A stretch of DNA of 64,000 nucleotides from Candidatus Poribacteria bacterium (GTDB taxonomy: Bacteria; Poribacteria; WGA-4E; WGA-3G), in assembly GCA_958295945.1 (NCBI GenBank), contig OY282386.1:558001-622000 (forward strand), given 5' to 3'. A program made the position numbers and the translations under genes. The notes below the pieces were generated by a model. That model did no database searches and was not told the DNA's origin. It saw only the letters and a list, made by a program, of their open reading frames with translations. Positions 38,757 through 56,888 of the stretch are shown here, piece by piece (the stretch's first letter is position 1; each line of letters starts with the position of its first letter).

Positions 38757-40082
38757 TAAGGCAGGGTTATTTAGTTTTAAAAACACTCAGTTATCAATTT
38801 AACTGCGAGTAAAGGTTTTGAAGCATAATATCTTATCTTGTCAGCAATACGTGTAACGCCATCAAATCGCAGGACTGCTAAAGCTGCATTTCGCAAAGCA
38901 GCCATAGTTTGTGGAATAGCCCCCGTTCGGACAGATGATGCGTCTTCTCCAAGTTGCGTCCCGCGCATCCAATGCGACTTGTTCTCTATTGACCAATGCC
39001 CACGGTGTAGTTCAAGTAAGCGTTCGGCAGAGGCTTCTTCAGGTGTCAGACTTGTCCTACCATAGTTGACTTTGGTTGTTTCTTCTTCTGTATTTGGGTT
39101 TTTGCGAATATAACGATATTGAATTACCTGTTCTGTGCCTGGCCAGTCCAGATATTCGTTGAGACTTGAGCTTGCTTTCAAACACCTTGTCTCAAGTCTC
39201 CCATGTGATTTTTCACAAGTCTGGTGATTGTCCATAGGGTCTCCCAATAGAGGATGTGTCGCATTCTCAGAAAGCGTGTCCGGAACGTCTTGAAAGAGTT
39301 TTTGGATCTCATCATAAAGGTCCGGGGGGTTCTTTTTGACAGGGAGCATATAATCTCCATTACCCTCTATGATGGCGTGGCAGAAAGTTTTCTGTGTCAA
39401 AAGTGCGTCTGTTGTGATGACTGGACCACTCACATCAAAGTTCTTAAGGATCTCTGTTGAGATCGGTATTTCGTTGGTTTTGTCGCTGACACCTTGTTGT
39501 GTCAGTGTAACCCCTAACTCATGAGAAACAACGGAGAGTAAATGGCTTATTGTCGCACCACTTTTCTTGCTGGCACGCATCGTTGGACCGTCTATAGCGA
39601 CTGTGTCAAGACACCCTTCTAAATCAGGTTGACTTGGACAAACGTCTTCTACCCAGTTTGTCCAAGTCTTTTCAACAGCATCCGCATCTAAAACTTTTAG
39701 CACATTATGTCCCGTTGCGGCACAAGGTGATGTCTTGTGTGTCCAACCGAGTGCTTGGACGAGGACAGGTTGTGACCGTGCCCAAGTTGCAGTGGAGGTA
39801 TATCCTTTATGTCCAGACATAAGACCAATAATGATAAGTCCGAGGATTGAGTTCAACGGGTGTCGTTTTCCTTTTTCGTTGCGCGGGTCTTGGATTTCTG
39901 CTAATCTATCTAACAAGTGTCGAGAGTTTTTCTCTGGCATTTTTCACCTCAAAGGTCCAGTTTTTTAAGGTGAAGTCCAGCAGATATAGCGTGAAAGATC
40001 ACGCTATATCTGCATTACCAAAAATATTAACGCTTGTGATAAGAAACGACTAAAATACCTAAAACTAAATAACCCTGCCTTA
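38757..40082. mobile_element. ISAs1-family insertion sequence
   Basis: Perfect 22-bp inverted repeats (TAAGGCAGGGTTATTTAGTTTT; 38757-38778 and 40061-40082) bound one intact transposase. The core ends CAGGGTTATTTAG fit ISAs1 elements. I see no clear target duplication, so the copy is probably old or recombined. Confidence 0.88.
38777..39940 (-). CDS. ISAs1-family transposase
   Basis: 387 residues, complete. DDE-type: IQDPRNEKGKRHPLNSIL at the N-terminus, the catalytic Asp in VAIDGPTMRA, VITTDALLTQK, and Glu in WSIENKSHWMRG. The C-terminus NAALAVLRFDG matches ISAs1 family. Its stop codon overlaps the first bases of the inverted repeat, as in compact elements. No frameshift is visible, so the element may still be active. 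Confidence 0.92.
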   Translation of the reverse strand: MPEKNSRHLLDRLAEIQDPRNEKGKRHPLNSILGLIIIGLMSGHKGYTSTATWARSQPVLVQALGWTHKTSPCAATGHNVLKVLDADAVEKTWTNWVEDVCPSQPDLEGCLDTVAIDGPTMRASKKSGATISHLLSVVSHELGVTLTQQGVSDKTNEIPISTEILKNFDVSGPVITTDALLTQKTFCHAIIEGNGDYMLPVKKNPPDLYDEIQKLFQDVPDTLSENATHPLLGDPMDNHQTCEKSHGRLETRCLKASSSLNEYLDWPGTEQVIQYRYIRKNPNTEEETTKVNYGRTSLTPEEASAERLLELHRGHWSIENKSHWMRGTQLGEDASSVRTGAIPQTMAALRNAALAVLRFDGVTRIADKIRYYASKPLLAVKLITECF

Positions 40083-51485: not shown

Positions 51486-52325
51486 TTAAGTTGTAAGTAG
51501 TCTGTTGAGAGTGCCGCCCAATATTTCTGATTTATCATCTTCCGTGATGAAGGTACAATGTGTTCTGAACGCTTCAAGTGCGTGTTGATATGTCATAAAA
51601 TTTCTGACAACCGGATAATCTGAACCCCAACAGAGACGTTCAGCACCAAAATGTTCATAGAGTGCCTGAACAACTCTATGTGTATCCTTGTATGGATAAT
51701 CCCATGAGACTTCGGAGACATAAGCAAATCCAGACATTTTTACATATATGTTTGGTACAGAGGCAGAAGTCAGAACTTGTTCAAGTTGTGGAAACGGTGG
51801 TGCCTCAGTTGCGCGTGCTCCTGCCATGTGATGACATAGAAATGGAACAGTTGGAAACTGCGCTGCAAGTTTGCGTAATGGTGAGTGATGATGGCTACCC
51901 ATTGCAATACTTGCGATTAATCCCAATTCTGCTGTTGTTTTGAAGAACCGTTGCCCCTCCTCAGAAAAGAACCAATTGCCATCGTCATCGCCTCTGAGGT
52001 AATGTGTATAACCTTTTAGTTGGTATTTTTCAGCTGCAGTTTTCAGTCGGTATGCGGCACCATCAGTGTGATATGTATCTGTCCACGAACAATCTACGTC
52101 TGCAAACTGAATGAGTCTATCGGGATAGCGTTTAACACAGTCTGCAGCATAATCGTTGTTATCTGGATTTCTCTCTATACGCGCACAGATTAGGACAGCC
52201 TTATCAACATTGTGTAAATCCATTTCGTGGAGGAGTTGTTCAACTTTTCCACGACTTTCATCATCGGGAACAGGGGGTTGGTAGGGCCAACGTGGCCATG
52301 CGTGTGTATGGGAATCAATAATCAT
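51486..52325 (-). CDS. amidohydrolase-2 family protein
   Basis: 279 residues. TIM-barrel amidohydrolase: IIDSHTHAWP (HxH metal site), LGLIASIAMGSHHH, FLCHHMAGAR, and CWGSDYPVVRN with the catalytic Asp. Members hydrolyse or decarboxylate cyclic carboxylates such as lactones. The ATG at 52325 has only a weak upstream site. Overlap-free, 84 bases after the NHL gene. Substrate unknown. Confidence 0.86.
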   Translation of the reverse strand: MIIDSHTHAWPRWPYQPPVPDDESRGKVEQLLHEMDLHNVDKAVLICARIERNPDNNDYAADCVKRYPDRLIQFADVDCSWTDTYHTDGAAYRLKTAAEKYQLKGYTHYLRGDDDGNWFFSEEGQRFFKTTAELGLIASIAMGSHHHSPLRKLAAQFPTVPFLCHHMAGARATEAPPFPQLEQVLTSASVPNIYVKMSGFAYVSEVSWDYPYKDTHRVVQALYEHFGAERLCWGSDYPVVRNFMTYQHALEAFRTHCTFITEDDKSEILGGTLNRLLTT

Positions 52326-52425
52326 TGTAGTTTAAAATTTGAAATATAATGCGATAAAGAATAAATTGCGGACATAATAAATAGTAACTCATGTCTTTAG
52401 GTTTTGTCAATGGAAATCTCTTTTT

Positions 52426-53081
52426 GGGTGTGTAAAGTTTTTGGCATGAACCATTTCATTTTCATGTTGGATGGAAAGCTTGAAATCTAATCAATCCAAT
52501 TCAAAGCCGAATGCGCTTACGGTATTCATCGGGTTGAAAACCCTCCAACACTGTTGACATTCTAATAAATCGTGGTTGAAAACCACTCCAACAATGTGAG
52601 ATGAATGTCCGAGGTGCAATGAATTGCGCTTGGTGAATGTACATAAGACATTCACATTGAACGCGTGTCTTGTTAATGAAATCCGAGATTTTTCCTTTGT
52701 CAAAACCGTACAATTGACGTACAAATTCACGTACAACCTGTACGCTTTTGTACGTTGCTGTAAGAGCAATGGACATAAGGGTTCGTAAGGTGTCTATTAA
52801 AAAACAGAAATTTTTTAAATTGTACGTCTTCTGTACTTTCTCTATGTCCTGAAAAGATTGCTTGTAGGATGATCCTTATTCCTTGTGTCCGCTGTTTTGT
52901 TTTCATAATTCTCTTCCTTATTCAACAAGTTATATGTGACGTATATTATAACACAATTAAATTACTTAAGTCAAGTTATTATTTACAATTTTTAACATTT
53001 CTTTTAATATTTTACAGTTTTTTGGAAAAACGTGTCCATTTCATCGGATATTGCGTTTAGTGCCAAAAACTTTATACACCC
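52426..53081. mobile_element. 656-bp MITE-like element with 21-bp terminal repeats and 8-bp target duplication
   Basis: Ends GGGTGTGTAAAGTTTTTGGCA (52426-52446) and its inverse at 53061-53081 match in 20 of 21 positions. CTCTTTTT flanks both sides exactly (52418-52425 and 53082-53089). No full transposase is inside. A 91-codon minus-strand frame (52501-52776, starting MSIALTATYKSVQVVREF) lacks a ribosome site and is half made of repeats, so I do not call it a gene. Seven GTAC sites cluster at 52708-52836. An 8-bp duplication would fit IS256-type transposition, by inference. Confidence 0.75.
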
Positions 53082-53155
53082 CTCTTTTTCGGCAGGATTA
53101 TTTAGTTATAAGGATTTTCCAGAATAGAGATGGACTGAAAGTTGATACTCAAGAC

Positions 53156-53185
53156 GGTAGGTTCGGTTTCCTAACCGAACCTACC
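53156..53185. repeat. 13-bp perfect hairpin
   Basis: GGTAGGTTCGGTT pairs with AACCGAACCTACC across a TCCT loop, inside the left arm of the MITE. The same motif appears partly at 37972. Confidence 0.6.
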
Positions 53186-53303
53186 GGCACTGGAAGGAGG
53201 GTAAATTGATTCCTCGCGCGCTTACAAAGCGCACCTACAGCGGGTTGGGGTTGCTAAATTGACACCTATGGTGCGGTTAGAAAGCTACACCATAAGCGTC
53301 AAT

Positions 53304-53306
53304 TTA
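53304..53306 (-). other. transposase stop codon inside the IS end
   Basis: The TAA of the transposase lies within the inverted repeat, so coding sequence and IS end overlap. Confidence 0.7.
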
Positions 53307-54623
53307 GCGATTTTTTGCTGCATTTTCAAGATATTCCAATGTTGTGTCTCTATTAGCACGTCTCTCAATGTAGCACCCATTTTGGAAAGCGTGTTTTATT
53401 TCATCAAAAGTTTGCCGAAAAGACATTATAGACTTGCGAAAACCTATTGCGAGGGTGCGTGCGAAGGTGCTAATAAGTTCTGCTGTTTTTGTTAGACTAT
53501 GTTTTAGAGATCGCCAACCGACCCCTAACATGATCCAGTGCCGAATAATCGCAACGATGAGTTTCACATATAACTCACATAAGATGCGATATGGCTTGTC
53601 GCTACGGGAGGTATCAACTTTTCCAATGCTTTTGAAGCATTTGAACATCAACTCAACCTGCCACCGAGTGCGTGCGACAGCACAAATCTGCTCAGCAGTC
53701 AGTTGGTCTACTCCAATGTTAGTGATGTAGATATTCCATCTTGCAAGCTGAAGTCGTTCCGGTGAAGGTTTCGTCTGCTTCCGCTTTGCGCGATGTTTTA
53801 TATCCATAATGCGCTTTTGGGTTTCTGTTTCTGAAAGTTTTTGAGCAACTATTCGTGCTTTGAGGCGTTTGTTTTTACCTATAAAGATTTGTTTCTCCTT
53901 GAAGTTATCAGAACCATTCTGGATCCATTTTTGCAAGTAAAAAGGTTCACCTATTTCATCATAAAGCAGACAGTTTACTTTGTAACGTGATATCCAAAAC
54001 ACACCCGCATCAGAAAGTTTATTGAAGGTGTCAAGCGAATAATAGCCGAGGTCTGCTACTCGTAAACTGCCAGATGGTAGCATCGCAATCTGCTTCTCAA
54101 TAGTGCTATCAGCGGTGATACCATTAGTCAGTTGAAAGTGTTCAAAAGTGCCTGTGGCAATATCAAAACGCAGGTGGAGTTTCACGGCAGCTGTGTTCGG
54201 TTTGTTCTTTTTGCTGCCACCTTCCCAAGTTTCATGGAGGGTATCAGGGAGTGTAATCCAAGAACTATCTTGTAAATAGACACCATTGAACTTTTCAAGG
54301 AGCGGAAGCGTTTGTGGCTCGGTAGAAATAATCGTGGATGCAGTAGCATCAAGGACAATTCTAAGGGTCTCTGCTGCTTCGGGAGTAAATCGCTGTTCAA
54401 TGGCTTGTCGTGTGATTGAAGTACCCAGGACACCAGCGGTTTGAGACATTTGTGTATAGGTAGCATCTGGATCATCTAACCAACTGAAAACAAGTGTTTG
54501 AACAAACCGATCGCCTGTAAGCTTTCGGTTCCGTGAGACAAAACCGGTCTCAAGTGCAGCTACATTAGCAGTCGTTGTCAGAATATCTTGCATTTTCTCA
54601 GGAACCTGTGATAAAGTATACAT
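53304..54623 (-). CDS. IS4-family (DDE) transposase
   Basis: 439 residues, no frameshift. LVFSWLDDPDATYTQM, QDSSWITLPDTLHETW (first Asp), RVADLGYYSLDTF (second Asp) and RTRWQVELMFKCFKSIGK (Glu in the YREK-like motif). Catalytic Asp and Glu look intact, so this copy may be active. Family name is by motif order; the closest IS cannot be named without a search. Confidence 0.9.
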   Translation of the reverse strand: MYTLSQVPEKMQDILTTTANVAALETGFVSRNRKLTGDRFVQTLVFSWLDDPDATYTQMSQTAGVLGTSITRQAIEQRFTPEAAETLRIVLDATASTIISTEPQTLPLLEKFNGVYLQDSSWITLPDTLHETWEGGSKKNKPNTAAVKLHLRFDIATGTFEHFQLTNGITADSTIEKQIAMLPSGSLRVADLGYYSLDTFNKLSDAGVFWISRYKVNCLLYDEIGEPFYLQKWIQNGSDNFKEKQIFIGKNKRLKARIVAQKLSETETQKRIMDIKHRAKRKQTKPSPERLQLARWNIYITNIGVDQLTAEQICAVARTRWQVELMFKCFKSIGKVDTSRSDKPYRILCELYVKLIVAIIRHWIMLGVGWRSLKHSLTKTAELISTFARTLAIGFRKSIMSFRQTFDEIKHAFQNGCYIERRANRDTTLEYLENAAKNR

Positions 54624-54842
54624 TGGAACACCTCTTATGTAGAACTAAAATTATAGAATTTATTATTTTCTACATTGTATAAGAGGTGTTTCTATTTAAC
54701 AACACTTTTCTATAAAAAACAGAATAAATTTTCCTTAAATTGACGCTTATGGTGCGGTTAGAAAGCTACACCTACCGTCTTGCGGCATTTAGCATTTGTA
54801 AAAAACACAAGAAAAACCTAAGACTAAATAATCCTGCTTTTT

Positions 54843-54954
54843 GGGAGTGTGTAAAGTTAATGCACTAATACGACTTTCTCTTATTGCATTGCGGGTCATA
54901 GAGACTCTGCAATACAATTGAGTATGTGATATTTTGCTAAAAACTTTACACACC
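54843..54954. repeat. 112-bp element with TGTGTAAAG termini
   Basis: GGGAGTGTGTAAAGTTAATGC at the left and TGCTAAAAACTTTACACACC at the right are imperfect inverses and match the ends of the 656-bp element at 52426. Too short to code for anything. Confidence 0.55.
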
Positions 54955-54997
54955 GCATGCAGATTATGTTCTGTGAATAAAATGCAGAATTTGTAAT

Positions 54998-55441
54998 CTA
55001 ATCGCTTGTTCCACTGGATCTTAACAAGTGTGCACCTAACGCGCCATTCAAACACGGAAGGATCGCATCAATGAAAATCCATACTATAGATCTTGTCTGA
55101 GGATCAACTGCGGTAAACTCCTTTCCTACTTCAAGGATACCAAACCAATTCCAGAAGAATAATATAGCGGCGAATATGAATCCATAAAACAGTGTGTTCG
55201 CTGCAATAAACTCTTGTACACTTGAGTTCTCGTGGGTGTTACTCATACGTATGTACCCGAATATCAATCCTAATACTATAGATATAGCCGAGAGCGGATT
55301 AATATAACCCCAAGCAGAACTATATGGATTTTCGCTATCAGGATCAGTAGTGTGATATAAGGGTTCAATAACTGTGTGGATTGCGACTAATACTGCAATA
55401 ATGATGAGAACCACACCTATCACTTTCTTAATACCATCCAT
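54998..55441 (-). CDS. hypothetical membrane protein, four TM segments
   Basis: 147 residues, behind AAGGAGGAAAGTC. Hydrophobic segments at about 6-25, 45-65, 78-98 and 112-135. The first segment, VIGVVLIIIAVLVAIHTVIEP, is followed by a polar loop. I do not recognise the family. It stands alone between mobile elements. Confidence 0.65.
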   Translation of the reverse strand: MDGIKKVIGVVLIIIAVLVAIHTVIEPLYHTTDPDSENPYSSAWGYINPLSAISIVLGLIFGYIRMSNTHENSSVQEFIAANTLFYGFIFAAILFFWNWFGILEVGKEFTAVDPQTRSIVWIFIDAILPCLNGALGAHLLRSSGTSD

Positions 55442-55554
55442 GACTTTCCTCCTTCACTAATAGGAAAATAGAGTGGATTTCAAATATATGAGTTAGTTTC
55501 TTACTCCATTTTCAACGAACTATAGTGAACATTGAAAATAATAGGACAAAGTCC

Positions 55555-55798: not shown

Positions 55799-56888
55799 CA
55801 GGACTTACGCATTTTTATAAAATGGTGTATACTATTCTATTATGACTACATGGACACAATCTAAAAAGAAGGAAAACCTATTTTCCGATTATTGTCAATT
55901 TTTGTTATCAAGTTTTACGAACTGGACGCAAACGTACTTTGGTGATCAGTCTGAGAAATGGAGCCATGATCAACTCAATCGTTTTTTGAGAAATGAGAAC
56001 ATTCCATCAAGCGAACTCTGGCAGTCTGTCCAGGATGACATTGAGTTTGATGATCAAGGGCACATTGCTTTTGATGATGTTGTGCTACCTAAACCGCATG
56101 CGAAAAAGATTGAAGCTCTCCGTCCTCAGTGGAGTGGTAGCGACAAAAAAGTCGTTGATGGCATCGGTATTGTAACGTGTCTCTATGTCAACCCAAAGAC
56201 GCAAGAGTATTGGATCATTGATTATCGCATTTACGACAAAGACCATGATGGAAAAACCAAAATAGACCATTTATTAGACATGCTGCAAAACGCGGTCTTC
56301 AAAAAACAACTCCCGTTTCGGACGGTGCTAATGGATAGTTGGTATGCATCCATGCAAGTCATGAAAGCGATTGAAAAACTTTCTAAGATTTATTATGTGC
56401 CACTGAAACGCAATCGTCTTGTAAACGATACGGACGGCGTTGAACCACACCAACAAGTCCAAAAGTTATCTTGGACACAGACAGAAACGCAACACGGAAA
56501 GCACGTGCACATCAAGAAGTTTCCAAAAGGGCATCAAGTGAAGTTGTTCCGGTTAGTCTCCTCTAACGGACGCACGGAATATATTGCGACAAACGATTTA
56601 TCTCAATCGGATGCGGATGCGACACGCCAAGAATGTCGCGTGCGTTGGAAGATTGAACAACTTCATCGTGAGATCAAACAAGTCACCGGTATTGGTAAAT
56701 GTCAATGCCGCAAGTTGCGTGCCCAAAGAAATCATATTGCTTGTTGTTTTCAAGTATGGGTCTGTTTGAAACGTGTTGCGCGCAAACATGGTAAAACAAT
56801 TTATGAACTAAAACAAAGTTTATTGGATGATTATATGCGATTTCAACTCTCTAATCCTTCAATAATTTTTAAAAATGCGTAAGTTCTG
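55799..56888. mobile_element. insertion sequence with CAGGACTTACGC ends
   Basis: Left CAGGACTTACGCATTTTT (55799) and right AAAAATGCGTAAGTTCTG (56871-56888) are inverse in 17 of 18 positions and enclose one transposase. No target duplication was recognised. Confidence 0.8.
55842..56882 (+). CDS. DDE transposase (IS701-like)
   Basis: 346 residues. HIAFDDVVLPKPHAK contains the first catalytic Asp pair, TVLMDSWYASMQVM the second Asp, and CRVRWKIEQLHREIKQVTG the Glu. This resembles IS701 and related families. The reading frame is open to the stop just inside the right repeat. The element's ends also bound a shorter MITE at 56933. Confidence 0.85.
   Translation: MTTWTQSKKKENLFSDYCQFLLSSFTNWTQTYFGDQSEKWSHDQLNRFLRNENIPSSELWQSVQDDIEFDDQGHIAFDDVVLPKPHAKKIEALRPQWSGSDKKVVDGIGIVTCLYVNPKTQEYWIIDYRIYDKDHDGKTKIDHLLDMLQNAVFKKQLPFRTVLMDSWYASMQVMKAIEKLSKIYYVPLKRNRLVNDTDGVEPHQQVQKLSWTQTETQHGKHVHIKKFPKGHQVKLFRLVSSNGRTEYIATNDLSQSDADATRQECRVRWKIEQLHREIKQVTGIGKCQCRKLRAQRNHIACCFQVWVCLKRVARKHGKTIYELKQSLLDDYMRFQLSNPSIIFKNA

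Follow-up and report, generated by a model that had tools for sequence, protein, structure and literature searches.

The window, by which we mean the whole 64,000-nucleotide stretch of the Candidatus Poribacteria contig that was analysed, lies in a home genome of 5.34 Mb assembled as a single contig. It carries a set of mobile elements nested in three layers: an IS and a second MITE with IS-type ends are both contained within an outer ISAs1-type MITE (Table 1).

Table 1. Features of the nested elements, in window positions.
Feature	Position	Strand	Basis
Left 9-bp flank of the outer MITE, a probable target duplication, CTTTTTCGG	53084–53092	+	Sequence; register test on 10 end pairs
Outer ISAs1-type MITE	53093–54836	.	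Ends close to autonomous ISAs1 copies of the same genome; other copies L011, L012, L015
REP-like hairpin CGGTAGGTTCGGTTTCCTAACCGAACCTACCG within the outer MITE	53155–53186	.	Inverted repeat; other copies have comparable hairpins
Right end of another MITE with the same IS-type ends, GCTAAATTGACACCTATG, abutting the left TSD copy	53253–53270	+	Sequence; repeat search
Left 20-bp TSD copy of the inner IS	53271–53290	+	Flank scoring
Inner IS, 1461 bp, IS231-like ends CATAAGCGTCAATTTA, transposase on the minus strand	53291–54751	-	Sequence; end search
Transposase, 439 aa; D119-D191-E324, R320, K331; YREK tyrosine position is A317	53304–54623	-	ORF, profiles, alignment, model
Right 20-bp TSD copy of the inner IS	54752–54771	+	Flank scoring
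Right 9-bp flank of the outer MITE, a probable target duplication, CTTTTTGGG	54837–54845	+	Sequence

The perfect inner inverted repeat measures 19 bp (53288–53306 and 54736–54754); with the ends of the IS anchored at CAT, 16 bp of it form the perfect inverted part and the remaining 3 bp belong to the target, whose bases are symmetric there. The right end, CATAAGCGTCAATTTAAGG, matches the IS231 signature CAT-------AA--TAA at all positions, and the left end shows a single difference, TAG for TAA. The transposase is encoded by a single ORF of 439 aa that scored 211.2 bits with the NCBIfam model IS4_1 (NF033592), above the cut-off of 115, and also matched Pfam DDE_Tnp_1. The catalytic residues are separated by 71 and 132 residues, inside the D(60-110)D(100-150)E spacing of the IS4 family, while the Y(2)R(3)E(6)K motif of this family is incomplete: R320, E324 and K331 are present and the tyrosine position is an alanine. 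In an alignment of 26 sequences D119, D191, E324, R320 and K331 were invariant. The AlphaFold model had a mean pLDDT of 91.7, and its predicted fold was closest to the Tn5 transposase (1muh; Foldseek E 8.5e-9, TM about 0.5). The inner element is a complete IS with IS231-like ends and an intact IS4-family transposase of predicted Tn5 fold. Within the best 80 of 137 relatives, the transposase has its closest named carriers in Candidatus Poribacteria. The home genome holds 88 occurrences of the IS-type end motif at up to one mismatch, against 2 for a reversed control, and a second transposase copy (L010/L030), 51% identical, at which a clear TSD was not found although the ends are present.

With its inserts the outer MITE is 1744 bp long, or about 263 bp after subtraction of the IS and one TSD copy. 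Its left end, CAGGATTATTTAGTTATAAGGATTTT, occupies 53093–53118 and has an imperfect complement at 54811–54836; the inverted-repeat search returned these ends at 81% over 26 nt in a register one base off (53092–53117 and 54812–54837). The element resembles the ISAs1 family in that its ends, CAGGATTATTTAGT..., are nearly those of autonomous copies in the same genome, where CAGGGTTATTTAGTTTT ends occur in four of the seven full-length ISAs1 copies (L051, L053, L054 and L055) and different ends in the remaining three. It differs from them in its content, as a search of the home genome for ISAs1 placed no such transposase inside it. The sequence-only reading had described an IS4-type element nested in an ISAs1-like MITE, and both halves of that description hold, given the IS4_1 score and the outer ends; the outer ends, the 9-bp flanks and the inner repeats were also recovered at the positions it gave, from the sequence and by repeat search. 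Flank agreement over 10 ISAs1-type end pairs was best at register 9 (44 of 90 positions, 0.49, against 0.20–0.38 at lengths 5–8 and 10–12), a result contributed by the MITEs: the flanks match at 8 of 9 positions in the window (CTTTTTCGG and CTTTTTGGG) and at L015, 7 of 9 at L012 and 6 of 9 at L016. TSDs of the ISAs1 family are 8–10 bp long. A clear target duplication was not seen at the four autonomous copies with CAGGGTTATTTAGTTTT ends, one of which, L055, lies in the window itself (38762–40077, 1316 bp) with an open transposase frame. Just to the left of the outer MITE ends a dispersed repeat of about 656 bp (52426–53081), found in full or partial copies of 83–98% identity at many sites of the same genome, and about 1 kb to the right lies an IS701-family transposase (55842–56882; NF049921, 376 bits).

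We then turned to the 20-bp direct repeat GTGCGGTTAGAAAGCTACAC that borders the inner IS. It is embedded in a 37-nt near-repeat of 95% identity (53255–53291 and 54736–54772), because the right end of the other related MITE precedes its left copy. The longest exact direct repeat in 52800–55200 measures 25 nt, and 300 mononucleotide shuffles gave none longer than 16; the identification of a TSD is independent of this figure and is based on other copies and on empty sites. The sequence-only reading had considered the 20 bp either a target duplication or part of the IS end, and had proposed that finding them at both ends of other copies would argue against a duplication. A similar sequence is indeed common at the ends, as the frequent site is a REP-like palindrome, GTGCGGTT...AACCGCAC or a version of it that differs by one base, and 12 of the 17 IS-end hits in 15 stretches of other genomes have this palindrome next to them; taken by themselves, these very similar sequences in related genomes would favour an IS longer than we assume. 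The similarity arises, however, because one repeated palindrome has served many copies as a target: the two flanks of a locus match each other but change from one locus to the next, and certain copies are inserted in unrelated sequence (for instance L346, L364 and L367). In the related genome G034, five IS copies are identical over 1480 bp, a stretch that covers the complete IS plus a few bases beside it. Four of the five have perfect direct repeats, of 20, 20, 20 and 19 bp, whose sequence may differ from locus to locus; the fifth is flanked by the same palindrome, which is inverted on one of the two sides.

Empty sites that carry sequence of this type without the IS speak in the same direction. 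An IS of G036, with a transposase 50% identical to that of the window, has the 19-bp repeat GGGGGTCGAAAAGTTGCAC on each side, and a close version of GGGGGTCGAAAAGTTGCAC is present once at five sites in four other genomes (L317–L321); both flanks were matched at L317, part of the right flank at L320, and the left flank plus the target only at the other three. The MITE L092 of the home genome, which has the same IS-type ends and a 20-bp repeat, has 14 relatives, three of which (L173, L177 and L180) can be aligned through the site and have no second copy, the target itself being diverged; for the other 11 the match is either split into two stretches or confined to one side. As to the composite in the window, a search of 52300–55500 in 20 genomes gave no site with both flanks, the left flank being a dispersed repeat. 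A look for uninterrupted copies of the MITE, which had been advised at the outset, was rewarded within the home genome: L012 is an uninterrupted relative that spans the junction at 84% identity and has a single, diverged copy of the target. Since identical IS copies bear locus-specific repeats and empty sites hold one copy, the GTGCGGTTAGAAAGCTACAC repeat is, as judged from these comparisons, a true TSD of 20 bp. Of the two options first considered, the target duplication stands; that the repeat belongs to the IS end is ruled out by the same observations, and we give that option next to no weight.

The length of this TSD is usual across the whole lineage, at near 20 bp. We formed 55 left-right end pairs from G000, G034, G036 and G043, some ends recurring in more than one pair, and looked for the best flanking direct repeat with 6–32 bp allowed; a repeat qualified with a score of at least 8 that was not below the inverted score. 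Repeats qualified at 28 pairs, every one of them of 19 bp (11 pairs) or 20 bp (17 pairs) and half of them (14 of 28) perfect, and the pairs outside these 28 had no qualifying repeat or an inverted one that scored better. Mismatched pairings of ends scored at least 10 in 119 of 2145 cases, because many copies share one palindromic target and their repeats are not independent. Cases in other sequence therefore carry the weight, namely L092, L346, L364 and L367 and, with mismatches, L357, L370 and L348. The anchoring at CAT is backed by L092 and L114, where a shorter IS end leaves an unmatched base, and in palindromic sites the IS boundary could be in error by 1–2 bp. Among the matches listed for the home genome, all four close back-to-back pairs of IS-type ends lie 20 nt apart (L089, L090, L028 and, at the left boundary of the IS in the window, 53253–53309), a spacing that fits repeated use of one site. 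At L089 and L090 both ends carry the same variant and form a compact palindromic unit.

An ordinary 10-bp TSD might also have been lengthened by recombination between neighbouring copies or by double insertion, and it is true that the end of another element with the same ends precedes the left TSD copy of the window. Solitary copies in unique sequence nevertheless show 19–20 bp as well, and single-copy empty sites exist; L208 and L092 contradict such a lengthening, which seems to us scarcely credible.

To place the lineage in its wider family, we used the best 80 of 137 relatives from a scan of the genome collection. Sixty-two of them entered the end search and 53 gave CAT-anchored ends which, together with the window, L116 and L119, made 56 loci; of the 18 relatives that did not enter, most were fragments, and L224, L214 and a few more made up the rest. 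The search requires CAT, such that elements with other ends are missed by design. The right end of L213 was taken as that of L109 in place of the automatic pick (2008 bp), and L280, whose 26-bp score reflects a tandem repeat, was not counted as a class member. Perfect direct repeats were found at 25 of the 56 loci and fall into two classes, a long one of 17–21 bp (12 loci that represent 9 different ISs, four loci being the G034 copies) and a short one of 9–11 bp (13 loci), with none of 12–16 bp. A direct repeat was absent at 23 of the 56 loci, several of them at a contig edge, and the rest have mismatched repeats; when flanks were paired at random, a score of 8 was reached in 7 of 2142 pairings. 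The 17 full-length Poribacteria copies among these loci comprise 10 with a direct repeat, three with inverted flanks (L213, L217 and L255) and four with neither (L116, L119, L215 and L219). Extra matches in the genomes of L220, L221, L224–L227, L229 and L231 yielded no new TSD.

A tree of 62 transposases, made with a quick search from the same best 80 of 137 relatives, was labelled by TSD class in 24 rows. Broken, partial or fused frames (L216, L229, L231 and L268) were omitted; at L231, from an Anaerolineae bacterium, the frame of the related transposase runs on into a much longer ORF of about 846 aa. We labelled L243 and L282 (one mismatch each) as one-turn and L225 (two mismatches, inverted) as two-turn, and left L224 unlabelled. 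On this tree the TSD class changes once, against shuffled means of 7.5 and 7.4 with none of 500 shuffles as low, and the branch that separates the classes has an SH-aLRT of 91, below the starred level. The long-TSD elements come from Poribacteria, an Anaerolineae bacterium (L220), a Chloroflexi bacterium (L221) and, with inverted flanks, Methylobacter luteus (L225), which probably belongs in this branch. The YREK tyrosine is present in all compared rows outside the long-TSD part of the tree, apart from L230 and L232, which are placed beside the long-TSD branch, and is replaced by A, V, I, T or F within it. Loss of the tyrosine thus nearly coincides with the change of class, and a causal link would be a guess: L225 keeps the tyrosine, and L232 has lost it with a TSD of 11 bp, so that the residue is a lead and not a cause.

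Both classes prefer symmetric targets, given the excess of mirror pairs in each. In the 12 long TSDs, which include several instances of the same repeated palindrome, 73 of 113 mirror positions pair (mean 29.7 and maximum 47 in 2000 shuffles), and in the 13 short ones 33 of 63 (mean 18.2, maximum 31). The target in the window is a decayed palindrome with 5 of 10 pairs, and that of the G036 IS is barely palindromic, with 3 of 9. Such a preference could mean that an extruded hairpin is what the transposase recognises, with cleavage at the feet of the hairpin, as branch b of the IS1272 model in PMC5678879 has it; the duplication would then be the whole stem-loop and its length would follow the palindrome. 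Besides the pairing in most of the long targets, some flanking palindromes are mutually inverted, and L224 (Oscillochloris), of the same branch and with ends that do not fit CAT, duplicates about 26 bp inside a 34-bp palindrome. At L207, however, the TSD is 19 bp at the centre of a 41-bp palindrome, hence the length of the palindrome does not set the spacing, and L092, L208, L346, L364 and L367 also have 19–20 bp in targets unlike the usual hairpin. As the TSD stays at 19–20 bp, we rejected a hairpin-dependent length as the rule and consider it very unlikely.

Our preferred reading, to which we assign a probability of roughly 87%, is that an IS231-like element of the IS4 family inserted into a palindrome-derived, REP-like 20-bp site of an older ISAs1-type MITE and duplicated that site. 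On sequence grounds, we read the long duplications of this IS231-like lineage as a possible shift of the strand-transfer spacing from about one helical turn to two. A pair of transposases would bind the CAT ends and hold a two-fold symmetric target, usually GTG...CAC; the two 3' ends would be joined to both target strands 19–20 bp apart, about two helical turns, where IS231/ISH8-type relatives would use a spacing of about one turn, and gap filling after strand transfer would leave the long duplication. The spacing would act as a ruler centred on the axis of the palindrome, independently of the palindrome's own length.

A duplication of this size departs from those described for related elements. 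According to Table 1 of De Palmenaer et al. (2008; PMC2266710), the IS4 subgroups with YREK make direct repeats of 7–13 bp, about one turn of the helix, so that the earlier remark that 20 bp is long for IS4 was justified. The same paper, in the parts that deal with these groups, gives 4–6 bp for IS701, ISH3 and IS1634, which are without YREK; CAT-------AA--TAA ends, a TSD of 10–12 bp and a full YREK for the IS231 subgroup; CAT ends, a TSD of 10 bp and YREK for the ISH8 subgroup; and long direct repeats of 8–514 bp, differing by copy, for IS1549 and IS1634. The lineage studied here shares with the IS231 subgroup the end signature, a similar size of the IS, the DDE spacing and the single ORF, but its TSDs are of 19–20 bp (20 bp in the window and 17–21 bp in the branch) and most of its members are without the tyrosine. 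With the ISH8 subgroup it shares the CAT ends, and the relatives with 9–11 bp found here are near the 10 bp of ISH8, from which the long class differs in both TSD and YREK state. The long repeats recall IS1549 and IS1634, whose lengths are variable by copy whereas ours are near 20 bp; a link to IS1634 was rejected, as the transposase remained below the cut-off of that NCBIfam model (40.9 bits against 100). ISRm22, an IS4-family element of Sinorhizobium, likewise inserts in REP elements at the palindrome axis, but with direct repeats of 6 bp in the passages of PMC1525189 that treat it. Inverted-repeat targets are also used by IS1272 of the IS1182 family, which replaces the stem-loop in the account drawn from PMC5678879, whereas here the target is duplicated, as the direct repeats and empty sites show; a link to IS1182 was rejected too, since no IS1182 model matched the protein of the window. 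Our searches of open-access papers brought up none that we recognised as reporting, for an IS4-related or IS231-like lineage, a TSD with a constant length near 20 bp.

By its YREK state and TSD length, the long-TSD branch might be treated as a separate IS4-derived family beside IS701, ISH3 and IS1634, in which a symmetric target is attacked about two turns apart, completing a half-, one- and two-turn series on one fold; this proposal is tentative, and we hold it at somewhat less than even odds. TSD length is treated as a signature of IS families because it reports the geometry of strand transfer, and among recognisable relatives with common ends and catalytic spacing it appears to have doubled once. 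L221 (21 bp) and L232 (11 bp), two Chloroflexi elements whose ends are almost alike, form one natural pair in which to seek the determinant of the spacing. Annotators who check only for repeats of 4–13 bp beside IS4 elements could miss or misread such insertions.

Inverted flanking palindromes were seen at L109/L213, L217, L225, L255, L340 and some MITEs. A bolder addition to the proposal of a separate family is that palindromic targets may be engaged as extruded cruciforms, which could let one TSD copy flip at these five loci. At L225 the 20-bp flanks are exact reverse complements (GGGTCGAATGAATTCGACCC) and have 2 mismatches when read as direct repeats; its IS is the sole match to this transposase found in the Methylobacter luteus genome, which makes it hard to explain the inverted flanks by recombination between two copies. 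Outside the long-TSD branch, two relatives lack a direct repeat and lie precisely midway in an inverted repeat, of 22 nt with 1 mismatch at L247 and of 19 nt at L262, so that each looks as though it had taken the place of a hairpin loop.
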